Both the position numbers and the translations under genes were made by a program. This document shows positions 7,487 to 29,086 of a stretch of 64,000 nt of DNA, piece after piece. The DNA comes from Phaeobacter gallaeciensis (GTDB taxonomy: Bacteria; Pseudomonadota; Alphaproteobacteria; Rhodobacterales; Rhodobacteraceae): positions 3,758,001-3,822,000 of the forward strand of contig NZ_CP015124.1 in NCBI RefSeq assembly GCF_001678945.1. Direction: 5' to 3'. The notes under the pieces were generated by a model, which did no database searches, had not been told where the DNA came from, and was given only the letters and a program-made list of their open reading frames with translations. The first letter of the stretch is position 1, and each line of letters starts with the position of its first letter.

Positions 7487-8056
7487 TCAGTCCTGTTCGG
7501 CGTCCCAGTTCCAGGGCGGAGCGGTTTCGGCCTGCCAGATGCCGCGCGCATTGGCCTGCGCGATCGAGGCCTGCGGGACATAGCGGCCGTCGTTCTCATG
7601 CGCCCAGGCCAGTCCTTCTTCGACCAGCAGGGCCCCGACGTCGACCCCATCGGCATCGCAGGTGGCCAAGTGTCGGCCATAGTGATCCTGATCGGTGCTA
7701 AAGCATTCCACCCGCTCAGCTTCGTTCACAATGGAGCGCACCCGTTGGCGCGCCTGGGCGGCGCAATCCCAATAGGACCCGTCCGGCGTGTTGCAGCGCT
7801 GCACCGCGAGCGGCGCATCAATATCGACGAGGCGGATGTTCAGATCGCCCATAGCCAGCGAATCGCCATCGATAACCCGAAAGTCCCGGCCCGGCGCCGA
7901 CACCAGCGGCACGACCTCACCGGCCAGTTTTTCGATGCTGTGCAACTGCAGAAAGATCTTTGCGGAAATGGGGTCGCCGGGCTGCAGATCGGCAGACATG
8001 GCAGCGCTGGCGGCGAAAGTAAGGGCGATACGGGCGGCAAGGTGTTTGATTTTCAT
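7487..8056 (-). CDS. Thermonuclease (SNase)-like secreted protein with altered catalytic site
   Basis: The 189-residue protein starts at ATG 8054-8056 (MKIKHLAARIALTFAASAAM), a clear signal peptide; the frame extends upstream but without signal character. The rest is a staphylococcal-nuclease-like OB fold: VIDGDSLAM, IRLVDIDAP, YGRHLATC and LVEEGLAWA. SNase enzymes use Arg35, Glu43 and Arg87. The arginines are present (IRLVD and YGRHL), but the position of the catalytic Glu in the usual DAPE motif is Leu here (DIDAPLAVQRC). It may have reduced or no nuclease activity, or may use another residue. Two pairs of cysteines suggest disulfides in the periplasm. Confidence 0.75.
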   Translation of the reverse strand: MKIKHLAARIALTFAASAAMSADLQPGDPISAKIFLQLHSIEKLAGEVVPLVSAPGRDFRVIDGDSLAMGDLNIRLVDIDAPLAVQRCNTPDGSYWDCAAQARQRVRSIVNEAERVECFSTDQDHYGRHLATCDADGVDVGALLVEEGLAWAHENDGRYVPQASIAQANARGIWQAETAPPWNWDAEQD

Positions 8057-8405
8057 CGGCGTGGCTTCTCTGATGATATTTGTCAGGTGGTGCTGATGGT
8101 TAAAAACTCGAATGAGCAGGATCATGCCCTCAAACAGGCCAATATTTGGTTAATGGCGGTGCAGACAGTGCCAGAGCGGTTCATCAGGGGCCCGCATGGC
8201 ACGCCGTTGGGGCGCCTATTCTCCCCCAGAAATCATACCGCTATGCCCCGCATCTCACCCTGGCCGAGCGGGGGGGGAATCCAGGGAAGCCGCCCCGGGC
8301 AGTCTCAGGTGTTCAGTCTGCAGGTCTGCAGAGAGGTAGGACAAGGGCCCTTGTGGGCCGCGCCGCAGTTCGGCTGCCACAAGGCTGCGGGCATAGGTGT
8401 CGGGT
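8057..8405. other. Gene-poor spacer with nested inverted repeats
   Basis: No credible gene was found in these 349 bases. The notable structure is at 8341-8384. ACAAGGGCCCTTGT (8341-8354) is a perfect 14-base palindrome, and its right half extends to CCTTGTGG (8349-8356), which is also complementary to CCACAAGG (8377-8384). The two pairings are mutually exclusive, as in terminator/antiterminator switches. The element lies between the small Cys-rich protein gene and the nuclease gene, both on the minus strand, so it would sit in the nuclease leader if they are co-transcribed. Confidence 0.45.
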
Positions 8406-8675
8406 TTAGGGTTTCAGCCGCTCAAGGATTTCCAGGTTGGCGCAGAAGGAGGGCGCAGCGGTCGCATCGGGTTCTGCATTGCGCCAGTGTTCGCATTTCC
8501 GCGCGCAATTGGAGGAATTGCAGCGATGCACCATGGTGGCATAATCCACTGCGGTGATGTCACCTTTCTTCATGGCGGCGCCAAGATCGACACCGGCAGC
8601 TCTGGCGGCGGTGGACATCAGGCCGATGGATTTGCTGAGGTACCCCGGCCTTGTCAGTTTTTCTGCTGTACTCAT
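8406..8675 (-). CDS. Small Cys-rich protein, probably DUF6455 family
   Basis: The 89-residue protein starts at ATG 8673-8675 (MSTAEKLTRPGYLSKSIGL). It has an acidic-basic helical N-terminal half with VDLGAAMKKGDI. A cysteine cluster CNSSNCARKC follows, then PSFCAN near the end. This order (MxxxLGVDL-like helix, CxxxxCxxxC, then FCxN) matches, from memory, the DUF6455 proteins common in Rhodobacterales; I could not verify it. The cysteines could bind a metal or form disulfides. No signal peptide is seen. Function is unknown, and its neighbours give little clue. Confidence 0.6.
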   Translation of the reverse strand: MSTAEKLTRPGYLSKSIGLMSTAARAAGVDLGAAMKKGDITAVDYATMVHRCNSSNCARKCEHWRNAEPDATAAPSFCANLEILERLKP

Positions 8676-9466
8676 CAAAAAAGTGTCTCCGACCCACGCC
8701 AAAGGCGCGGCTGCTGTTGGTTCGTCGCGTGTTCAAGGCGACCATTCATGTCGAGACCGGCGGAGGAGCCGACCACGTCATCAGTTGCGTTTCCAATCTG
8801 ACCGACAGCGACAGTTAAGGTGAAGAACGCGGCACGAATGGGGCACCAAAGCGCCAATCGGTAAGTTTCCGTAAAGACTAGTTACGATTTTATTCGAGCT
8901 GTCCTTATGGCGGTCACGCGACACGGCCTGAGAGAGAACCGGAGGATGGTACTCTCGCGCTCTCGGCCCGGTCTGTCCGTGTTCTGAGCTGGGGGTGTTT
9001 CTTGGACTTTTACGCCACGATGGGGGCGACCAGCCTGGTCAATGGGCGTTGCAAAAGAGATAGGCTTTTCTTGCGCGCTGCCCGCCCATTCCCCCGGCGC
9101 GGCCATGCTCATCGATGGTCCGGTTTGAACGACGGCTACTCGGTACGATACTCGCTACATCCGAAAGCCAAACCCTTTGGGAAGGCCCCAAAGGTGGGCA
9201 TTTGGCTCTGGTTCCTGACAACGGCATACTGATTACTGGCACATTCGGGCAAGGGAGAGGAGCACAGCCACACCTCACTATAACGTGATACAACCCTGGG
9301 TGGTTATGGGGGTATTCCAGACCTCTGCGTGGTTTGCTGCTCCGCCTGGTCGTTGGCACCAGATTACCGCGCCCTTATGACCTGGTTCAGCGGGCCGGGG
9401 AGAGGGTGGGCAGGCGCCGCCAAAAGGCGCATTGACGCCGGTTTCACGGCAGCACAGAGTCCCGAT
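8676..9466. other. Long intergenic region upstream of glnE
   Basis: I find no credible gene in 791 bases; short open frames on both strands lack protein-like composition and may be remnants. A two-tier hairpin lies at 9166-9207: outer arms AGCCAAA (9166-9172) and TTTGGCT (9201-9207), inner arms CCTTTGGG (9174-9181) and CCCAAAGG (9187-9194) around AAGGC. No T-run follows on either side, so it is not a simple terminator. The glnE promoter should lie within the last part of this region. Confidence 0.5.
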
Positions 9467-13827: not shown

Positions 13828-14370
13828 GTGAAACTGCTCCTTGATACTTGCGTTCTTTATCCCACGGTGATGCGGGAGATGCTGCTGGGCGCGGCCCGGC
13901 TGGGGCTTTATGCGCCGCTCTGGTCCGAGCGTATCCTGGAGGAATGGCGCCGCGCGGCGCTGAAACTCGGCCCCGAAGGGGCGGCGCAGGCCGCGTCCGA
14001 AGTTGCGCTGTTACAGGCGAACTGGCCCGGTGCACTTGTGGCGCCCGCACCGGGAGTGGAGGCGCGGCTGTGGCTGCCGGATGCGGCGGATGTGCACGTG
14101 CTGGCCGCCGCCATTGCGGGGCATGCCGATGGCATCGTCACCATGAACGCCAAGGATTTTCCGCGCCACACCCTGTCCGAGGAAGGGTTGAAACGCATCG
14201 GCCCGGATGAGCTGCTTTATGATCTGTGGCTCAAGGAGCAGGCCGGGATGCAGTCGGTGGGCGAGGCCGTTCTGGATGAGGCTAACCGCCTGTCCGGCGG
14301 TGGCTGGCAGATGCGCCCCTTGCTGAAAAAGGCACGCCTGCCACGGCTGGCCAAGGCGCTGGCGGGCTGA
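13828..14370 (+). CDS. PIN domain protein (putative endoribonuclease)
   Basis: The 180-residue protein starts at GTG 13828, 6 bases after rlmI. Its N-terminus KLLLDTCVLYPTVMREM and the later LPDAADVHVLAAAI and GIVTMNAKDFP supply the acidic residues of a PIN nuclease (first Asp in LLDT, second pair in DAADVH, third in NAKDFP). PIN domains cut RNA with Mg or Mn. It matches the longer Rhodobacterales PIN family that has a C-terminal extension of about 50 residues (GGGWQMRPLLKKARLPRL). No antitoxin-like partner gene is adjacent, so I do not call it a VapC toxin. Proximity to rlmI suggests an RNA-related role. Confidence 0.8.
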   Translation: MKLLLDTCVLYPTVMREMLLGAARLGLYAPLWSERILEEWRRAALKLGPEGAAQAASEVALLQANWPGALVAPAPGVEARLWLPDAADVHVLAAAIAGHADGIVTMNAKDFPRHTLSEEGLKRIGPDELLYDLWLKEQAGMQSVGEAVLDEANRLSGGGWQMRPLLKKARLPRLAKALAG

Positions 14371-15470: not shown

Positions 15471-16157
15471 TCAGGCCTTGGCCCAGTCCGCCTCCAGCCG
15501 TTCGATGGCGGCGATGCGCTGTTCGGTCTTGGGGTGGCTCATCAGCCAGGCTGGTGCCATGCCCGCGCGCGACTGGGTCAGTTCCTCAAGCTTGCGGAAT
15601 AGACTTTTTTGCGGTTCGACCCCGATGCCTGCCTTCATCAGCAGGGCGGCTGCATATTCATCCGCCTCGTATTCATCCCCACGCGACAGCCGCGCTGCCA
15701 GAAGATTTGCCAGAAGCCCGGCAATCCAGGGGCCGACAAAGGGGATATAGCGCCCGAGGATCATCATCAGCGCGGTCCTGAGGGCGTTCTGGCCGGAAAA
15801 GTCGATGATGCGTTTCTTTGAATGCCCCAGCGCCACATGCCCCAGTTCATGCGCGATGACCGAGGCGAGCTCTGCATCGCTGACATCGCCCGCCTGATAC
15901 TTGGCGTAGAACCCGCGGGTGATGAAGATACGTCCATCGGGGGCTGCAAGACCGTTCACAGGGTCGACCTCGTAGATGAAGACGGGGATATCCGCCACCT
16001 CCAGCGCCGCCGCCATCTGGTCGGTCAGCCGTTTCAGTTTCGGGTCCGCAAGCCGGGTTGAACGGGCATCAAGTTCGCGGTGGGTCCGCCAGACCGAAAT
16101 CCGGTAGGAGACGAGGCCATAGAGCACGGCCAGCAGAATGGGAGTGAGACGCAGCAT
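15471..16157 (-). CDS. M48-family zinc metalloprotease, membrane-anchored
   Basis: The 228-residue protein starts at ATG 16155-16157 with a single N-terminal membrane segment (MLRLTPILLAVLYGLVSY). The long upstream part of the frame overlaps the HD-GYP gene and is not protein-like. The gluzincin motif HELGH appears in ASVIAHELGHVALGHSKKR, and the third ligand lies in RGDEYEADEYAA. A hydrophobic stretch ILGRYIPFVGPWIAGLLANL follows the active site. It belongs to the short HtpX/Oma1-like M48 proteases used in membrane quality control. It lies 31 bases after the HD-GYP gene on the same strand. Confidence 0.85.
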   Translation of the reverse strand: MLRLTPILLAVLYGLVSYRISVWRTHRELDARSTRLADPKLKRLTDQMAAALEVADIPVFIYEVDPVNGLAAPDGRIFITRGFYAKYQAGDVSDAELASVIAHELGHVALGHSKKRIIDFSGQNALRTALMMILGRYIPFVGPWIAGLLANLLAARLSRGDEYEADEYAAALLMKAGIGVEPQKSLFRKLEELTQSRAGMAPAWLMSHPKTEQRIAAIERLEADWAKA

Positions 16158-16188
16158 GAGGTAGATATGGGGCGGGCAAGCCCCGCGC

Positions 16189-17631
16189 TCAAGCGGATTG
16201 TTGGCCGCTTTTCGTTGAAACCTGCGCGAGGCTATCCCATTCGCAGTCGCCCTGCAGGGACGTCGCAGGCCAGCCGCTGGCCGTGATCGCATCCTGTAGC
16301 GCGGCATAGCAATCCGGATCGATACCGGTGCCGGACATCTTGTCCATGATCTTATAGGCTTCCTCCAGTGGCATCGCATCGCGATAGGGGCGGTCGGCGG
16401 TCAGCGCGTCAAAGACGTCGGCAACGGCCATGATCCGCATGTCCCGCGTCAGCGCCTCTCCCTGAAGCCCATAGGGATAGCCCTTGCCATCGGGGCGTTC
16501 GTGGTGGGCCACGATCACTTCGGCCATCCGCCGGAAGGCGCCAACCCGGCTCAGCACGTCATAGCCCCAGACCGGATGCTTGCGGACGATATCCATCTCG
16601 TCCATCGTCAGCTTGCCCGGCTTGTCCAGAATGGTGTTCGAAATGCCCAGCTTGCCAATATCATGCAGCAGCGCGGCGCGGGTCATCCACCGGGTGTGGC
16701 AGGTCGCCAGCCCCAGCTGTTCACAGATCATGCGGGTATAGCGGGCGACACGTTGGGAATGGCCGTGGGTAAAGGGACTTTTAGCGTCGATCACCAGCGA
16801 AAAGGCATGACTGATCTCATCAAGGTAGTCCTCGTTCACCTCTGCCGTGTGCAGGGCATGGGCGCAGGAGAACACCTGTTGCTCCAGTTCCGGTGACAGC
16901 AGGTCATGGGCGAAACCGGGGTCACGGATCAGGCTGGTGAAGACGCGGACCAGATCGGGGTCGAACCAGACGCCGGCGCGGTTTTCCATCTCCCGCGCGG
17001 CAGCTTCGGCGCCGAAATCCAGGGTAAAAACATCCGTCACCTGCGCCATCAGGGCGATGCGCGACAGGAGCGGGATCTGATCGCCCTGCTGGCCCAGAGG
17101 CCGCCCACCGCCGTCCCAATGTTCATCAAGTGAGGCGATCGCTTCGGCCACCTCTTCGGAAAACCGCATGCGGCGGGCGATTTCCGCCCCGCGGCCGCAG
17201 CGATTGCGGACCAGCTCCTGCCCGATTTCGTCCCGGTGTCCGATTACATGGCGCAATGTCTTCAGCCGCGTCAGGGGCGACGCCCCCCGGGCTGCGCTGC
17301 GCAGCACGAAGGGCATGCCTTCGCGGCAGCCTTTGACGCGTTTGAAGGTCCGTTTGAAGGCCAGATCATCCATCATGTAGAGTTCGTTGATCCGGGCCGC
17401 GTTAGAACTGCAACCGGTGTCTTTCATCAGCAGGGTGAAATACAGATCGGTGCGCATTTGCGGCGGCAGGTCCAGCGCCTCGGCCACCTGCATGCCGATC
17501 CAGGCGCAGCGGATGCAATGGCCCTTGGGCTGGCCTTCGGTCATATCCAGCGCGTGGCTGAGTGCGCCAAGGACTTCTCCAAGATGAAGCTCCGGCCCGG
17601 CGGTGCCGTCAAAGTTTGTGCCAGTGGTCAT
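16189..17631 (-). CDS. HD-GYP domain phosphohydrolase (probable c-di-GMP phosphodiesterase)
   Basis: The 480-residue soluble protein has two HD-like regions. The N-terminal region (about residues 25-215) has HCIRCAWIG and SLDEHWDGGGRP but lacks a complete canonical HD-GYP set. The C-terminal region (about residues 285-455) has GHSQRVARYTRMICEQLGL, LLHDIGKLGI and the diagnostic HHERPDGKGYPYGL. HD-GYP enzymes break cyclic-di-GMP to pGpG or GMP. There is no signal peptide, membrane segment or receiver domain, so the degenerate N-terminal HD domain may be the sensor. About 150 bases separate it from the VWA gene upstream. Confidence 0.87.
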   Translation of the reverse strand: MTTGTNFDGTAGPELHLGEVLGALSHALDMTEGQPKGHCIRCAWIGMQVAEALDLPPQMRTDLYFTLLMKDTGCSSNAARINELYMMDDLAFKRTFKRVKGCREGMPFVLRSAARGASPLTRLKTLRHVIGHRDEIGQELVRNRCGRGAEIARRMRFSEEVAEAIASLDEHWDGGGRPLGQQGDQIPLLSRIALMAQVTDVFTLDFGAEAAAREMENRAGVWFDPDLVRVFTSLIRDPGFAHDLLSPELEQQVFSCAHALHTAEVNEDYLDEISHAFSLVIDAKSPFTHGHSQRVARYTRMICEQLGLATCHTRWMTRAALLHDIGKLGISNTILDKPGKLTMDEMDIVRKHPVWGYDVLSRVGAFRRMAEVIVAHHERPDGKGYPYGLQGEALTRDMRIMAVADVFDALTADRPYRDAMPLEEAYKIMDKMSGTGIDPDCYAALQDAITASGWPATSLQGDCEWDSLAQVSTKSGQQSA

Positions 17632-23537: not shown

Positions 23538-24344
23538 TCAGATGTCGAGGTCGACCCAGACGGGTACGTGATCCGACGGTTTTTCCCGCCCGCGCACGTC
23601 CTTGTCGATCTGGCAATCCGTCAGCAGATCCGCCGCCTGCGGGGTCAGCAGGAAATGGTCGATGCGGATCCCGTCGTTGCGGTTCCAGGCCCCGGCCTGA
23701 TAATCCCAGAAGGAATAATGGCCCGGCCCCTGATGGCGGGCGCGGAAGGCTTCGGTAAAGCCGAGGTTGACGATCCGCTGGAAGGCGGCGCGGCTTTCGG
23801 GGCGGTGCAGGGCGTCCTCGGCCCAGGCCTCGGGGCGTTTTGCATCCTCGGGCTGGGGGATGATGTTGTAATCCCCGGCCATCAGTGCGGGCATCTCATC
23901 GGCCAGAAGATCCTTGGCGCGATTGCGCAGCCGCTCCATCCACGCGAGTTTATAGGCGTATTTGCCGCCGGGCAACGGGCTGCCATCGTCGGTCAGCTCC
24001 ACCGGGTTGCCGTTGGGCAGGTAAAGCCCACAGATGCGGATCGCCTGTTTTCCGACCACGGTGGCCTCGATCCAGCGTGCCTGCTCGTCGCTGTCATCGC
24101 CGGGCAAGCCGCGGCTGACATCTTCCAGCGGCAGTTTTGAAAGGATCGCCACTCCGTTGAAGCTTTTCTGACCATGGGTTTCGACGTTGTAACCACGTTC
24201 TTCGAAAATCTCGCGCGGGAAGGCGCCGTCGACCGATTTGATTTCCTGCAGCAGAACCACATCCGGCTGCGCCTCATCAAGCCAGTCAGGCAGGGCATTG
24301 GCGCGGGCTTTGATGCCGTTGATGTTGAACGTGGCGATTTTCAT
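23538..24344 (-). CDS. xthA: Exodeoxyribonuclease III (AP endonuclease)
   Basis: The 268-residue enzyme has the full exonuclease III motif set: MKIATFNINGIKAR at the start, LLQEIKS, the catalytic region LMAGDYNIIPQPED, DGIRIDHFLLT and the terminal SDHVPVW. It repairs abasic sites and trims 3' ends using Mg. Length equals the family norm. The gene stands alone on the minus strand, and its promoter region is shared with the AT-rich divergent region in front of the repeat-peptide gene. Confidence 0.93.
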   Translation of the reverse strand: MKIATFNINGIKARANALPDWLDEAQPDVVLLQEIKSVDGAFPREIFEERGYNVETHGQKSFNGVAILSKLPLEDVSRGLPGDDSDEQARWIEATVVGKQAIRICGLYLPNGNPVELTDDGSPLPGGKYAYKLAWMERLRNRAKDLLADEMPALMAGDYNIIPQPEDAKRPEAWAEDALHRPESRAAFQRIVNLGFTEAFRARHQGPGHYSFWDYQAGAWNRNDGIRIDHFLLTPQAADLLTDCQIDKDVRGREKPSDHVPVWVDLDI

Positions 24345-24740
24345 GTCGGATCTCCAGGCGCGCCCGGCGACCGCAGGGGTGCGGGCGGGGCATTTGGGGT
24401 TGCCGATCTATCGCCCAAACAGGGGGCCAGAGCAAGGGCTGGCCACGGAGGGGCGAATCACTTATGCGGGCTGGCGCTGACGGGTGAAAGGCTCGTTTTG
24501 CGACTTTGCATGTATCCACCTAGGGTTGTTGTTTTTGGCCTTGCAGGACTGCCTTTGTGGATAAGGATTAGTATAAGGTGTGTATGGTTTTAAATACCTG
24601 TAATTAAACGGTAATTTGCAATTCAAAGTTAAAGTGATTGTCGCGGAAAAAGCAACCTGAAATTGCAGATTCCGGTTTTGGAATTGCCAACTCCGTGCCA
24701 GCGTTTTGGTGGCGATAATGCCCAACACTCGGAGGTTTCC
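24345..24740. other. AT-rich divergent regulatory region before the repeat-peptide operon
   Basis: These 396 bases separate xthA (minus) from the repeat-peptide gene (plus). About 24490-24720 is clearly richer in A and T than the rest of the window (runs such as TTTTAAATACC and TAATTAAACGG). This is what a regulated promoter or a nucleoid-protein binding zone would look like. A good ribosome-binding site GGAGG at 24731-24735 lies 5 bases before ATG 24741. I cannot assign a sure -35/-10 pair. No gene is seen inside. Confidence 0.55.
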
Positions 24741-25100
24741 ATGACTGCTTTGCTCAAGAAAAATGACGTTCAATCTGCCGCTACTTCATCCGCTGAGGCT
24801 GCTGCTGCCAGCCTGTTTGGCGGCGAAGCTGTCGAGATGTTTTCGTCCGGATCGGCGCCCTCTGCAGACCTGATGACAGGCGGCGGTGCGGAGATGTTCA
24901 GCTCCGGTTCCGCGCCGTGTGCGGCGGATAGTTTTGGCGGTGAGGCGGTTTCGCTGTTCAGCTCGGGCTCTGCACCGGTTGCGGATGGCAGCCAGTCCAG
25001 CGGCGCGCTGACCGGTCTTTTTTCCTCTGGCTCGGCGCCGCAGGCCCGGGCGCGCACCGATCAGGGGGATGTCACCGGCCTGTTTTCCTCGGGCAGCTGA
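24741..25100 (+). CDS. Repeat peptide with FSSGSAP units; candidate multi-core peptide precursor
   Basis: The 119-residue protein starts at ATG 24741 behind GGAGG. After a leader of about 30 residues (MTALLKKNDVQSAATSSAEA and on), the unit FSSGSAP occurs at residues 34-40, 53-59, 73-79 and 94-100, and FSSGS are the last five residues (115-119). Spacing is 19 to 21 residues. Most units are preceded by Met or Leu and, a few residues earlier, by GG or G (FGGEAV, TGGGAE, FGGEAV). The codons of the copies differ synonymously, so the peptide motif, not the DNA, is being conserved. Only one Cys (residue 60) is present. There is no signal peptide or membrane segment. It heads a three-gene unit with an unknown enzyme-like protein and a DMT transporter. 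Related Rhodobacterales proteins may be filed as DUF6749 (from memory, unverified). Confidence 0.85.
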   Translation: MTALLKKNDVQSAATSSAEAAAASLFGGEAVEMFSSGSAPSADLMTGGGAEMFSSGSAPCAADSFGGEAVSLFSSGSAPVADGSQSSGALTGLFSSGSAPQARARTDQGDVTGLFSSGS

Positions 25101-25138
25101 GGCAGGTGCCCCTATAAAACCGCACCATAAACAGGGGC

Positions 25139-25198
25139 GATGATCATGACCTGATCATCCAAAAGCGGGGGCACCGCCGATCCGATCCGGGGGTGCCC
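25139..25198 (+). promoter_or_regulatory. Two hairpins between repeat-peptide gene and downstream gene
   Basis: GATGATCA (25139-25146) and TGATCATC (25152-25159) form a perfect 8-pair stem around TGACC. GGGCACC (25169-25175) and GGTGCCC (25192-25198) form a second 7-pair stem. No T-run follows either stem. Such structures between a peptide gene and its downstream genes often act as processing or partial-termination points that keep peptide mRNA in excess; that role is inferred here. Confidence 0.5.
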
Positions 25199-25253
25199 GC
25201 AATACCGATCCTTCCACCACCCACTGCACAGCGCACAAAAGGAGCTCGCCTCC

Positions 25254-26315
25254 ATGGCACAGGTTCTTGCCTTTCCGACAGACCGTATTCGGCCCCAGGG
25301 GGGCAATCTGGCTGTGCTAAGCGATACCTTCGCGCGGCAACGGCACAGCCGGGAGAATGTGTTCTGGCTGAAGGAAAACGCCGAACTGCTGAATATTCTC
25401 GAATGCACGGGGGCAGAGATGCCGGTCGCGGCACTTGCACCTTTCGAGGCGTTTTACGAGACGGCAGAGCGGCGGCTGAGTTTCTTTCGGCAATACTACC
25501 GTTTCATCCTGTCCATCTGTCTGGATCTGGAGGATCTGGGATTTGCTGGCGGCAAGGGCGAAGAGATGGCCGCCTGGGTTGAGGGCAGCGATCTGGTGGA
25601 CGCCGAATTGTCCGACCTGCAACGGGCCGAGGCACGGCGGCTGCTGGCGCGTCGGGGGATCATGCTGGACTTGCCTGGGCTGGATCAGCGTCTGCATGAT
25701 TTCATCGAAACCTCGCAGACCTTTGCGCTGCCGAACAAGAAGGCGGGATATGAGCTCACCCATATCGTGTTCTACCTGTCAGAATACGGTCGCAGGGATC
25801 CGAGGCTGAGCCAGGCAGCGCTGCGCAGTCTGGAGTACGCCGGGGTGGTGTCATTTCTCGATCAGGATGCGGATCTGCTGGCCGAGGTCTGCATCGCGCT
25901 GCGCTATGCCGGGGGAGAGGTGCCTATGATCTGGGAGGACTGGCTGGCCGCGCAAACCGATGGTTTCGCCGTAATACCGCAGGGCTTTACCGGCGGGGGC
26001 GATGACTATCACTGCTATTTTGTCTGCAACTGGCTGCGCGGCCTGAGTGGCGGGAAGGCCTTTGATTGCCGCCTGCCGCAGGGCGCGACACACCTGAAGG
26101 CGCCTGAGGGCGCCGGGGTTCTGCGCAGCCTGTCCATGGCTCTTTATGAGGCAGACGTGGCGCGCGGCGGGGACTGGGCGTTGGCACGGGACAGGCTGGC
26201 GTCAGGGTTGGATCCGGCGCAGCGAAACGTACTGGCGCAAGCCGAAAACAGCTGCGCCTGCTTCGGGCAGTTCTTCGAAGGCTTCCTGCGCAGCGGCCAT
26301 GCGGGGCGGGCGTGA
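25254..26315 (+). CDS. Protein of unknown function next to the repeat peptide; possible maturation enzyme
   Basis: The 353-residue protein starts at ATG 25254, with AAGGAG at 25239-25244. It is soluble and largely helical. Recognisable short motifs are YELTHIVFYLSEYG (about residue 165), DDYHCYFVCNWLRG (about residue 246) and a Cys pair in NSCACFGQF near the C-terminus. The His-, Cys- and Trp-containing motifs look like active-site or metal-binding positions, and the helix-rich layout recalls alpha/alpha-toroid proteins such as LanC or prenyltransferase-like folds, but this is only a guess. It may correspond to DUF6902 (from memory, unverified). It lies between the repeat peptide and a transporter, whose ATG overlaps its stop, so it is a candidate tailoring enzyme. 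Confidence 0.7.
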   Translation: MAQVLAFPTDRIRPQGGNLAVLSDTFARQRHSRENVFWLKENAELLNILECTGAEMPVAALAPFEAFYETAERRLSFFRQYYRFILSICLDLEDLGFAGGKGEEMAAWVEGSDLVDAELSDLQRAEARRLLARRGIMLDLPGLDQRLHDFIETSQTFALPNKKAGYELTHIVFYLSEYGRRDPRLSQAALRSLEYAGVVSFLDQDADLLAEVCIALRYAGGEVPMIWEDWLAAQTDGFAVIPQGFTGGGDDYHCYFVCNWLRGLSGGKAFDCRLPQGATHLKAPEGAGVLRSLSMALYEADVARGGDWALARDRLASGLDPAQRNVLAQAENSCACFGQFFEGFLRSGHAGRA

Positions 26316-27271
26316 TGGGATTGCCCTTTGCCCTGACCGGCGCGGTGTTCGCTGTTCTTTATACCGGGTTCATAGCTTCGGCCGATGGCATTACCAAGCT
26401 GTTGGCGGGCGGCTATGCCCCGGCGCAGATTTATGCTCTGTCCGGGGCGGTTGTGGCGGGGCTTTGCGCCGCGACCACACTCATGCGTAGCGGCGCCCGG
26501 TCGCTACCGGACGGACTGCGCACGGACTGCCGCTTGGCCATGGGACTGCGGTCCGCGGCTACGGTGGCGGCGGCCTTGTGTTTCTTCTATGCCTTCCGCT
26601 TGCTGCCTTTTGCCGAGGTGTTCATCTTCATCGGACTGATGCCGCTTCTGGCCGGGCTGATGTCGGCGCCGATCCTGCGCGAGCGGGTGCGTCCCGGCGC
26701 CTGGCTGGCGCTGGCGGCGGGTTTTGGTGGGGTGATCTGCGTCTTTCCGGGCGGCCTTTCCAGCCTGACCGCAGGCCACGCGGTGGCGCTGGGGGCCTCT
26801 GCGCTGGGGACGCTGTCGATCACCCTGTCACGCTATATCGGTCGGCATGAGCAGAACGTGCTGGCGCAGGTGCTCTATCCCAATCTGGCGCTCAGCCTTG
26901 TCATGCTGCCGGTGCTGCCCTTTGTCTGGCTGCCAATGCCAATGGTGGATGTCGTCTGGGCGCTGAGCTATGCCGGTCTGCTGTTCGGGGCGCGTTGGCT
27001 GCTGGTGGCGGCGCTAAGACGGTTGCCATCCTATGCGGTGACGCCGCTGATGAACCTGCAATTCGTCTGGATGGTATTGATCGGCGCGCTTGGGTTTGGC
27101 GAGGTGCCGGAGCAGAGCACCTGGATGGGGGCTGGGGTGATTGCCGCCTCGGGGATCTATCTTGTCTGGGATCAGCTAACCCCGGGTGGCAATGTCTGGA
27201 GTAAGTCGATGATCAATGCGCGGCGGCAGGTCCGGCACCGCGCAGGCGTGGCGATGCGCACGGACCCGTAA
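26315..27271 (+). CDS. DMT-family (EamA) transporter linked to the repeat-peptide operon
   Basis: The 318-residue membrane protein shows the ten-helix EamA layout in two halves: FALTGAVFAVLYTGFIASAD at the start, FRLLPFAEVFIFIGLMPLL ending half one, and VTPLMNLQFVWMVLIGALGF with GAGVIAASGIYLVW at the end. ATG 26315 overlaps the preceding TGA by one base (TGATG); a GTG at 26312 is also possible. DMT proteins usually export small metabolites or amino-acid derivatives. Tight coupling to the two preceding genes suggests export of whatever they make, though an unrelated function cannot be excluded. Confidence 0.85.
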   Translation: MGLPFALTGAVFAVLYTGFIASADGITKLLAGGYAPAQIYALSGAVVAGLCAATTLMRSGARSLPDGLRTDCRLAMGLRSAATVAAALCFFYAFRLLPFAEVFIFIGLMPLLAGLMSAPILRERVRPGAWLALAAGFGGVICVFPGGLSSLTAGHAVALGASALGTLSITLSRYIGRHEQNVLAQVLYPNLALSLVMLPVLPFVWLPMPMVDVVWALSYAGLLFGARWLLVAALRRLPSYAVTPLMNLQFVWMVLIGALGFGEVPEQSTWMGAGVIAASGIYLVWDQLTPGGNVWSKSMINARRQVRHRAGVAMRTDP

Positions 27272-27366
27272 TCCGGTCGTCGCCTACCAGATCTTTCCGA
27301 GGCGTGGAAATATTCTTTAACGATCGGGGCAACGACGCGAGCGTGGCGATGCCCAGATGAGGAGAT

Positions 27367-27690
27367 TTACATCGAGAAGGAGGTGCCGCAGCCGCAGCTG
27401 GAGGTGGCATTCGGGTTCTCGATGGTGAAGCGCGCACCGATCAACTCTTCGGTGAAATCGATAACTGCGTTTTCCAGAAACGGCAGCGAAACCGCATCCA
27501 CCACAACCTTTTCACCGCCGCCTTCGAGCACCAGATCCTCGGGCGTCGGGGTGTCGAGGCCGATCTCATACTGGAAACCGGAACAACCGCCCCCTTCGAC
27601 GGCGACCCGCAAGGCCTGGCCCTGACCGGCGGCGCCGATCTCGGCGAGGCGCGCAAAGGCGCGTTCTGTGACTTTTGGGGGCAATTGCAT
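27367..27690 (-). CDS. A-type iron-sulfur carrier protein (IscA/ErpA/HesB family)
   Basis: The 107-residue protein starts at ATG 27688-27690 (MQLPPKVTERAFARLAEIGA). The three conserved cysteines are present: EGGGCSGFQYEI near residue 35, and CGCG near residue 100. It binds and passes [4Fe-4S] or [2Fe-2S] clusters to apoproteins. The frame is open 40 codons upstream, but that part crosses the promoter of the divergent dgt gene. Whether it is the IscA, ErpA or SufA member cannot be told from this gene alone, since no isc or suf genes adjoin it. Confidence 0.9.
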   Translation of the reverse strand: MQLPPKVTERAFARLAEIGAAGQGQALRVAVEGGGCSGFQYEIGLDTPTPEDLVLEGGGEKVVVDAVSLPFLENAVIDFTEELIGARFTIENPNATSSCGCGTSFSM

Positions 27691-27782
27691 ATATTTTCTC
27701 CCAAATATGTGGTGCCGCGTGCTAACCCATATATAGAAAGTCCTGGGCGGGCGACAAGATTTGCGAAGGATAAAGATCAGAA

Positions 27783-28934
27783 ATGAATGCGCCTTTTGCG
27801 ACGATGCCAAATCGGAGCCGTGGCCGGTTGGTCGCCGAGGAAGAAAGCTACTTCCGCTCTCCCTTTCAACGGGACCGTGACCGCATCATCCACGCCAGCG
27901 CCTTTCGCAGGCTCAAGCACAAGACGCAGGTCTTTGTCGAACACGAAGGTGACAACTACCGCACCCGGCTGACCCATTCGATCGAGGTCGGGCAGGTGGC
28001 GCGGACGATTGCCGGGGCGCTGGGGCTCAATCAAGAACTGACCGAGGCGGTCGCGCTGGCGCATGATCTGGGGCACACGCCCTTTGGCCATACGGGCGAG
28101 GATGCGCTGCATGCGTTGATGGCACCCTATGGCGGCTTTGATCACAACGCGCAGGCGATCCGCATCGTCACCAGCCTTGAACGCCACTATGCCAATTTCG
28201 ACGGGCTGAACCTGACTTGGGAAACGCTGGAGGCCATCGCAAAGCATAATGGCCCGGTCACTGGCCCGCTGCCCTGGGCGCTGGCCGAATTCAACGACAC
28301 CATGGATCTGGAGCTCAGCACCCACGCCAGCGCCGAAGCGCAGGTGGCGGCACTGGCCGATGATATCGCCTATAACAATCACGATTTGCACGACGGGTTG
28401 CGGGCAGAGTTGTTTAGCGATGCGGAAATCGCCGATCTGCCCATCGTCGGGTCGGCCTATCGCGAGGTGGACCTGCGCTATCCTGGGCTTGAGCTGAACC
28501 GGCGCCGACACGAGGCGCTGCGGCGCGTCTTTGGCGTGATGGTCGAAGATGTAATCGCGACCTCTCGCGGCCTGTTGCAGAAGGCCGGGGTGCAAAGCGT
28601 CGAAGATGTGCGCGCGCTGGGCGCGCCGGTAGTGGCCTTTTCCGACGGGTTGTGGAGGGATCTGAAGGAGATCCGTGCGTTCCTGTTCCAGCGCATGTAC
28701 CGGGCGCCGAAGGTCATGAAGAAACGCGCCGAGGTGGCGCAGGTGGTCGAAGCGTTGTTTCCCTATTTTCTGGCCAACCCCTATCAGATGCCGGAGCGCT
28801 GGCACGCCGAGATCCGCGCTGCGGACAGCCAGACCGTTCTTGCGCGTCTGGTGTCGGATTACATCGCGGGCATGACGGACCGGTTTGCGCTGCAGGAACA
28901 TGACCGGCTGATCCTGGGGAAACCTGTGGCCTAG
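27783..28934 (+). CDS. dgt: Deoxyguanosinetriphosphate triphosphohydrolase-like dNTPase
   Basis: The 383-residue HD-domain protein hydrolyses dNTPs to nucleosides and triphosphate. Motifs are FRSPFQRDRDRIIH, FRRLKHKTQVF, TRLTHSIEVGQVARTIA, ALAHDLGHTPFGHTGE (the HD metal site) and ALADDIAYNNHD. The length matches the alphaproteobacterial type 2 group rather than the longer E. coli Dgt. It is divergent from the Fe-S carrier gene with 92 bases between. It may help set dNTP pools together with the dCTP deaminase and MazG found later in the window. Confidence 0.9.
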   Translation: MNAPFATMPNRSRGRLVAEEESYFRSPFQRDRDRIIHASAFRRLKHKTQVFVEHEGDNYRTRLTHSIEVGQVARTIAGALGLNQELTEAVALAHDLGHTPFGHTGEDALHALMAPYGGFDHNAQAIRIVTSLERHYANFDGLNLTWETLEAIAKHNGPVTGPLPWALAEFNDTMDLELSTHASAEAQVAALADDIAYNNHDLHDGLRAELFSDAEIADLPIVGSAYREVDLRYPGLELNRRRHEALRRVFGVMVEDVIATSRGLLQKAGVQSVEDVRALGAPVVAFSDGLWRDLKEIRAFLFQRMYRAPKVMKKRAEVAQVVEALFPYFLANPYQMPERWHAEIRAADSQTVLARLVSDYIAGMTDRFALQEHDRLILGKPVA

Positions 28935-29086
28935 CGCAGTGGACTGGCGCGCATGAGGGCCGTTCGGGCGTTGCGGACCAGTTTGCGCTGCCCATTGGGG
29001 CATGACAGGCCTTGTGGCGGTCGCTGATGGTTGACCCCTGACGCAGGCGTGGGTATCCGCTAGATCAAACCAATAGGACGCCCGAT

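Follow-up and report, generated by a model that had tools for sequence, protein, structure and literature searches.

What does a gene for a protein made largely of repeats do together with the two genes that follow it? The question is raised by a stretch of Phaeobacter gallaeciensis DNA of 64,000 nucleotides (contig NZ_CP015124.1, positions 3,758,001 to 3,822,000; the whole stretch is called the window and its first letter is position 1), in which a 119-residue repeat protein is followed by a 353-residue protein and an EamA transporter. An earlier note on this DNA had proposed a peptide precursor with FSSGSAP cores, an unrecognised modifying enzyme and an exporter. The answer proposed here, which is held at slightly better than even as a whole, is a multi-core cassette of Rhodobacteraceae of the type that makes ribosomally synthesised and post-translationally modified peptides (RiPPs), where the 353-residue protein, a member of the Pfam family DUF6902, probably epimerises one residue in each five-residue core (pentad) and the product would be cut out and perhaps exported. 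Multi-core RiPPs are already known, and what is new is the protein clade, the type of precursor and the taxonomic setting. The parts of the precursor gene are the following.

24741..25100, + strand: precursor gene, multi-core, 119 residues, with CGGAGG upstream of the ATG (relatives compared)
24741..24821, + strand: putative leader, residues 1-27 (MTALLKKND...ASLFG), read from the sequence, without a family match
24840..24854, + strand: core 1, FSSGS (sequence)
24897..24911, + strand: core 2, FSSGS (sequence)
24957..24971, + strand: core 3, FSSGS (sequence)
25020..25034, + strand: core 4, FSSGS (sequence)
25083..25097, + strand: core 5, FSSGS, terminal and the end of the protein, an ending type found in 83 of 108 distinct precursors

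FSSGSAP stands at residues 34, 53, 73 and 94, and FSSGS at residue 115 closes the protein, as the earlier note had read it. When the protein was shuffled 20,000 times, a 5-mer was present five times in none of the shuffles, four times in one and three times in 34. The copies in the window differ in their codons (TTT/TTC, TCG/TCC/TCT/AGC and GGA/GGT/GGC). The N-terminal stretch would act as a leader; it gave a chance-level match only in Pfam (MYEOV2, E=0.66), and starts of the type M-[TSN]-A-[LQ]-x-K were seen again by eye among the precursors of relatives. Neither the precursor nor the DUF6902 protein had an NCBIfam match at E<=1. At the level of sequence, the encoded precursor with leader and core that characterises a RiPP appears to be present.

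Relatives were taken from two partly overlapping sets. A scan of GTDB contigs gave 364 stretches encoding DUF6902 relatives, the best 80 of which, nearest to the window protein, are referred to as the named loci (they include Leisingera, Phaeobacter, Ruegeria pomeroyi, Marivita, Pelagimonas and Salipiger), and a family survey covered 149 genomes spread over the Rhodobacteraceae, 44 of which encode a DUF6902 relative and 105 do not. The two sets hold 123 precursor-bearing rows, several cut by contig ends, from which the 108 distinct precursors derive. Repeat units were located by the anchor G[DE]xxxxF, which is independent of pentad residues 2-5 and shows 100% at G and F by construction, giving 618 units in the 108 precursors, 98 of which have at least two units; a first codon profile was dropped because its copies had been picked by the pentad itself, and the anchor-based profile took its place. 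Between units of one precursor, 94-99% of codon differences are synonymous at pentad positions 2-5, compared with 92% at the P and 73% at the A of the AP that follows, 23-27% in the spacer (positions +7 to +11) and 21-44% over the five residues that separate the anchor G from F. The pentads are conserved at the peptide level, which bears out the earlier view that different codons for the same residues reflect selection on the peptide. However, the conserved unit is the pentad FSSGS and not the heptad FSSGSAP which the note had named, since the pentad is the exact end of the 83 precursors counted above and conservation of the A of AP is no more than partial.

The number of pentad copies per precursor ranges from 2 to 20, and in most precursors the internal copies exceed the terminal one. 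Successive spacings (n=656) are 20 residues in 279 cases, 21 in 330 and 8 in 19. In the L154 precursor, FTSGSTAL is repeated head-to-tail at 8-residue spacing, which suggests that a long spacer is not required. Terminal pentads (n=108) are FSSGS in 48 precursors, FTSGS in 10 and FTSWS in 10, the rest being of 29 other kinds, and their residues by position are F99 V4 Y2 C1 M1 I1 (position 1), S59 T35 V4 I4 P2 M2 C1 L1 (position 2), S99 T4 C3 N1 A1 (position 3), G73 W17 A7 S6 C3 T2 (position 4) and S84 A8 L7 C6 M3 (position 5), so that none of the five has an invariant side chain.

Within a precursor the pentad hardly varies: 91 of the 98 carry a single pentad among their anchored units, and the seven non-uniform ones include Ruegeria types that mix FSTSC and FSSGS, and L069, with one off-register unit. 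Three of the Ruegeria-type precursors (L191, L078 and L176) have FSTSC inside and FSSGS at both ends; in such mixed precursors a single enzyme may deal with both cores. A quick tree, for which the careful search was unfinished, was built from 107 proteins with a precursor and the aberrant L111 described below, 108 in all; on it, cores with Trp at position 4 require 3 changes, where shuffling gives a mean of 16.1. In some clades, for example Leisingera, every member of the tree keeps FSSGS, and five grouped Marivita proteins go with five terminal pentads (IMSAS, FTSAS, FTSGS, FTSGL and FTCGL), each constant or nearly so throughout the precursor of its own genome. The pentad is uniform within a genome and different between species, that is, it undergoes concerted change.

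The precursor gene lies directly upstream of the DUF6902 gene in 80 of 80 named loci (77 by script; L164, L193 and L202 by eye) and in 43 of 44 survey loci (39 by script; L097, L105, L107 and L110 by eye), which supports the previously proposed layout of a leader and repeated cores beside a candidate modifying enzyme. Nor was the repeat gene found without the enzyme gene, a case that the earlier note had set against its own proposal. In the survey the repeat was matched at E<=1e-3 in 40 genomes, which all encode DUF6902, and in none of the 105 that lack it. A divergent repeat gene could, however, escape this search, as it did in three genomes with DUF6902 whose cores have diverged (YIAGL, MMCCS and FTTSM) and which were found by position. 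Weaker precursor matches, at E 0.009-1, were put down collectively to low-complexity noise. A RiPP-type pairing of precursor and DUF6902 is very likely.

The 353-residue protein, which the earlier note had left without a family, is matched by Pfam DUF6902 (PF21843; 474.7 bits, cut-off 27, E=2e-142) and also by DUF6895 (PF21836; 79.1 bits, cut-off 23.8, E=4.9e-22). Both Pfam entries are domains of unknown function. With a profile score above cut-off and the common polar residues, the sequence places the protein in a DUF6895/DUF6902 superfamily. Three alignments were used: A1, with 39 of the 44 survey proteins (L111 and 38 others); A2, with 66 rows (65 proteins from the 80 named loci, plus that of the window), which also fed an AlphaFold2 model; and A3, with 16 rows (7 DUF6902 proteins, 8 DUF6895-matching proteins and L111). 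The gene and its conserved positions are as follows.

25254..26315, + strand: DUF6902 protein, 353 residues, candidate core-modifying enzyme, probable alpha/alpha toroid (Pfam, AlphaFold2, VIA-align)
25761..25763, + strand: His170, conserved across the DUF6902/DUF6895 sample (15 of 16 rows in A3, the exception being L111; 66 of 66 in A2)
25872..25886, + strand: Asp207 to Glu211, conserved at both ends in the sample (same counts: A3 15 of 16, A2 66 of 66)
26007..26012, + strand: Tyr252-His253, conserved across the sample (again A3 15 of 16, A2 66 of 66)

The same 15 rows of A3 that keep H170, D207, E211, Y252 and H253 have [DE]-[FYW]-G after H170, with an overall identity between DUF6902 and the aligned DUF6895 proteins of 15-19%. 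The remaining row, L111 (G039, 7852-8925, 25% identity), is a DUF6902 protein encoded between xth and erpA, and its locus is the sole one of the survey without a precursor. It lacks T169, H170, Y174, E177, Y178, D207, E211, Y252 and H253. All of these but E177 (32 E, 4 D, 1 G, 1 K) are invariant in A1 outside L111, a total of 38 rows, as they are in 66 of 66 rows of A2. In L111 both the putative active site and the precursor are gone, a natural control of one case, and the protein is possibly a repurposed or decaying copy.

DUF6902 was matched at E<=0.001 in 5 of 385 genomes of the class, and the four that pass the cut-off are the window genome and three of its family. DUF6895 gave 8 matches in 299 genomes of the phylum, 6 over the cut-off, four of those being DUF6902 genes; sub-threshold matches in this set are G604 and G594. 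Two orders gave 3 DUF6895 matches in 194 genomes and 1 in 199. Among PLSDB plasmids there was no match to the window DUF6902 protein at E<=0.001.

A member of DUF6895 has been characterised, going by the title of the report, as a lasso-peptide epimerase (Shi et al., ACS Catal. 2026, 16, 1757; cited in PMC13352647). From its family and its conserved polar residues, DUF6902 would be an enzyme, and the repeat would be what it modifies. A change to the backbone is favoured over Ser chemistry because no pentad side chain is invariant and a change at C-alpha tolerates variation. Epimerisation is the most likely chemistry, given the homology to a family with a titled epimerase, the lack of a fixed reactive side chain and the conserved set of His and acidic residues; once the RiPP-type pairing is granted, its probability is put somewhat above even.

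The proposed cassette would have two genes, often three. The precursor made by the ribosome would carry a short leader and, in two to about twenty copies, a single pentad (FSSGS in the window), each copy usually preceded by G-[DE]-x4. DUF6902, through His170, Asp207, Glu211, Tyr252 and His253, probably binds each unit and alters the peptide backbone of the pentad, the most likely change being inversion of one C-alpha per pentad from L to D by acid/base catalysis. Housekeeping proteases would next free short peptides or fragments, and the EamA transporter, where present, may export the product; we infer both excision and export. Epimerisation leaves mass unchanged, and therefore a search for mass shifts would miss it and ordinary proteomics would report an 'unmodified' peptide. 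The mass-shift test put forward in the earlier note, and its view that finding only unmodified full-length protein would refute the system, consequently do not bear on this chemistry.

Whether the transporter belongs to the cassette is a separate matter, independent of the other alternatives, so that its probability is not to be added to theirs. It is a serious possibility, though one kept below even, that EamA has an unrelated function and the true unit is the precursor with DUF6902.

26315..27271, + strand: EamA (DMT) transporter, a frequent but optional partner (Pfam E=3.4e-14)

The possible start of the EamA gene, the ATG at 26315, overlaps the stop codon TGA of the DUF6902 gene (TGATG), as previously noticed, and this overlap in the window speaks for a link between the two. 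The gene adjoins DUF6902 in 64 of 80 named and 35 of 44 survey loci, whereas it is absent at the site, with DUF6902 kept, in 16 of 80 and 9 of 44 (one of them L111); the exporter of the earlier note is therefore a common partner but neither constant nor indispensable. In the other direction, the site was inspected in 20 of the 105 survey genomes without DUF6902, picked mainly by closeness of xth, and in none of the 20 was there a gene like the window EamA in the 7-7.5 kb around and beyond xth (tblastn E<=1e-5), so that the transporter seems to travel with the cassette. Nor was a precursor found in any of them by pattern (an open reading frame with at least two G-x(3-6)-pentad units) within 3.5 kb beyond xth. 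Both xth and erpA are present in all 20, within about 510 bases of each other in 14 and with 1.2-5 kb of other sequence in six; among the 80 loci with DUF6902, the neighbours are xth in 75, erpA in 74 and an HD-domain phosphohydrolase in 73, while a flavin adenine dinucleotide (FAD) monooxygenase recurs less regularly, in 49 of these 80 and in 8 of the 20 without DUF6902. Gain or loss seems to affect the cassette as a whole, in which the transporter is common but dispensable.

A second alternative accepts a multi-core system of RiPP type but gives DUF6902 another task, such as a different backbone or terminal modification, group transfer or cutting of the repeats, with the toroid serving as a peptide-binding funnel. 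The AlphaFold2 model (predicted local distance difference test, pLDDT, 91.9; predicted template-modelling score, pTM, 0.90) is helical with two short strands. VIA-align, whose coverage is residues 15-271 and hardly the C-terminal part, matched the model to alpha/alpha toroids with Z 9.8-12.3 over 204-234 residues at 6-14% identity (50 rows shown), the best being the class II terpene cyclase 5bp8 (Z 12.3, root-mean-square deviation 3.9, 227 aligned), followed by the beta subunits of RabGGTase and farnesyltransferase (Z 11.5-12.1) and by C3d/C4d (Z about 10-11). DUF6902 is probably an alpha/alpha toroid, a fold class that is likely and not certain, because Z below about 13 can reflect an arrangement widespread among helical proteins, and a common fold shows no function. 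Foldseek found nothing for the model in the PDB at E<=0.001, and searches by sequence of solved structures with the single protein and with the profile gave none at E<=1; a single match of a DUF6895 protein to a solved structure (E=0.94) was taken as chance.

That protein farnesyltransferase and RabGGTase act on peptides with this same fold, that the conserved His/Asp/Glu set could bind metal, and that the pentad so often closes the precursor (83 of 108), which would suit a need for a free C-terminus, all lend some weight to an enzyme other than an epimerase. Against this, prenyl transfer and lanthionine formation need a fixed Cys or Ser/Thr, and the pentads offer none that is invariant, the nearest being position 3 with Ser in 99 of 108; internal pentads are more numerous than the terminal one in most precursors; and the one characterised relative known is, by its title, an epimerase. 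We regard this alternative as rather unlikely. For the Ser-rich cores that the earlier note thought might be modified, a change of the Ser side chains as such is not supported, no pentad position being invariantly Ser, Thr or Cys. A lanthipeptide, or another RiPP modified on Ser, Thr or Cys side chains, was rejected on the same ground; this is the weakest of the rejections, with Ser, Thr or Cys at position 3 in 106 of 108.

The repeat protein might also stay uncut, as a structural, scaffold or sensory protein, with DUF6902 as a protein that chaperones it, binds it or modifies it intact. The very regular periods of 20 and 21 residues would suit such a protein, as would the lack of a protease found at the locus and the chromosomal place that the locus keeps in most relatives. 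It would, however, be unusual for a protein that needs to fold to vary from 2 to 20 copies and to let its spacers drift freely, and some precursors space their pentads by 8 residues; DUF6895 genes, moreover, adjoin small genes in which one or two units can be made out by eye. This explanation is considered improbable. A chance low-complexity repeat or an annotation artefact, as the Ala/Ser/Gly-rich sequence might suggest, can be dismissed in view of the 20,000 shuffles, the near-complete synonymy of codon change in the cores and the precursors in all 80 named loci.

Several points weigh against the epimerase cassette. Its peptide product is a prediction, and the linkage evidence of the named set covers the 80 of 364 stretches nearest to the window protein. 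At 15-19% identity, an activity like that of the DUF6895 epimerase, known by its title, may not carry over to DUF6902. The EamA gene is missing from loci that keep DUF6902, in the numbers given above. Conservation at the locus is not known for any protease, cyclase or other RiPP enzyme, and the nearest peptidase in the window is an M48 peptidase (15471-16379), about 8.4 kb from the precursor and among unrelated genes. Placing between xth and erpA on the chromosome, true of most loci, is unlike that of most antibiotic-type clusters.

The Pfam scan covered 28 window proteins between 12.6 and 44.9 kb, among them the retained open reading frames of at least 150 residues except 13828-14370 (180 residues) and the antisense frame 27777-29003, with most small open reading frames outside it. 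Among these 28 proteins there was no known RiPP enzyme. A lasso peptide cluster was considered and set aside, as genes for a lasso cyclase and a leader peptidase are absent among them. The space between the precursor and enzyme genes has some structure of its own.

25101..25253, + strand: intergenic space separating the precursor gene from the enzyme gene; hairpins formed by GATGATCA-N5-TGATCATC and by a GC-rich stem (fold z-score -2.39)

In this space, GATGATCA-N5-TGATCATC forms a perfect 8-bp inverted repeat at 25139-25159, and 5 of 200 shuffles of the space fold equally well; the hairpins are a possible control of the ratio of expression of the two genes. Rfam gave no matches over 24340-27400, including none at the gathering threshold in this space. 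A promoter scan found 0 (shuffle mean 0.8), and a terminator scan found 4 (shuffle mean 2.8, sd 1.6), none of them within the space. The gap between precursor and enzyme genes has a median of 66 bases (n=106); in L074 and L162 (Sedimentitalea arenosa) it is unusually long, at 342 bases.

Since the pentad copies change together within a genome, as expected of a recognition code shared by sender and receiver, the system could be a species-coded peptide signal of roseobacters containing D-amino acids, made by a new class of alpha/alpha-toroid peptide epimerases acting up to twenty times per precursor. This extended proposal is speculative and quite unlikely to hold in full. Pentads that are uniform within genomes and change between species make a role in signalling or self-recognition directly testable in roseobacters, which are abundant in the sea. 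If the epimerase cassette is real, these bacteria hold a widespread peptide-modifying system that genome-mining rules have probably missed because neither gene has an NCBIfam match, and DUF6902 would be a tool for peptide chemistry that acts many times on short motifs and tolerates their side chains. In the open-licence literature, one title, that of the epimerase report, concerned DUF6895, but nothing was found on DUF6902, the motif strings or the Pfam numbers, nor, in titles and the starts of abstracts, any description of a repeat precursor/DUF6902 system, which may be described elsewhere.

Loci of DUF6895 resemble the present one in part, which counts in favour of the epimerase cassette. 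By eye, the DUF6895-matching gene is immediately preceded by a small gene in 8 of 9 loci, with a Trp-containing motif in six (L125, L126, L127, L210, L212 and L237) and a weaker motif in L211 and L234. The small gene of L126 has two GxLxGPW units. Across phyla there is a likeness between GYVLAWDKYVLVV in Kitasatospora (L210) and GYVFVWDKYVYDV, which a second unit accompanies, in L237. The L127 protein scores over the DUF6895 cut-off and just under that of DUF6902. At L125 (8104-8703), two similar small precursor-like genes stand in tandem (ALVGRWYVY, SLVGPWFVL) before the DUF6895 gene, while a Streptomyces fungicidicus plasmid (L213, 5718-7603) has two adjacent DUF6895 paralogues with a serine hydrolase and a P450, and no clear precursor.

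Among known systems, the class II terpene cyclases, prenyltransferase beta subunits and C3d/C4d resemble residues 15-271 of DUF6902 in fold, at 6-14% identity. The microviridin enzyme family is the ATP-grasp ligases. Microviridins are multi-core RiPPs with several cores per precursor (PMC5934393), and share with the DUF6902 system one leader, several cores and one enzyme acting many times; they differ in enzyme family, and the DUF6902 precursors repeat a like pentad up to 20 times and lack a fixed reactive side chain in it. MslH, the epimerase of the lasso peptide MS-271, is described as acting at C-alpha with two His/Asp pairs, a calcineurin-like fold and Ca(II) (PMC10406935). Its two His/Asp pairs are comparable in catalytic type only, with no claim of homology, to the two conserved His and several acids of DUF6902; a fold of the MslH type was considered for DUF6902 and rejected, the model being almost all helical. 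For the DUF6895 lasso-peptide epimerase, as titled, the parallel is one of family: DUF6902 scores above the DUF6895 cut-off, and the eight aligned DUF6895-matching proteins have its H170, D207, E211, Y252, H253 and [DE]-[FYW]-G, but the precursor of DUF6902 is a repeat protein and not a lasso precursor.

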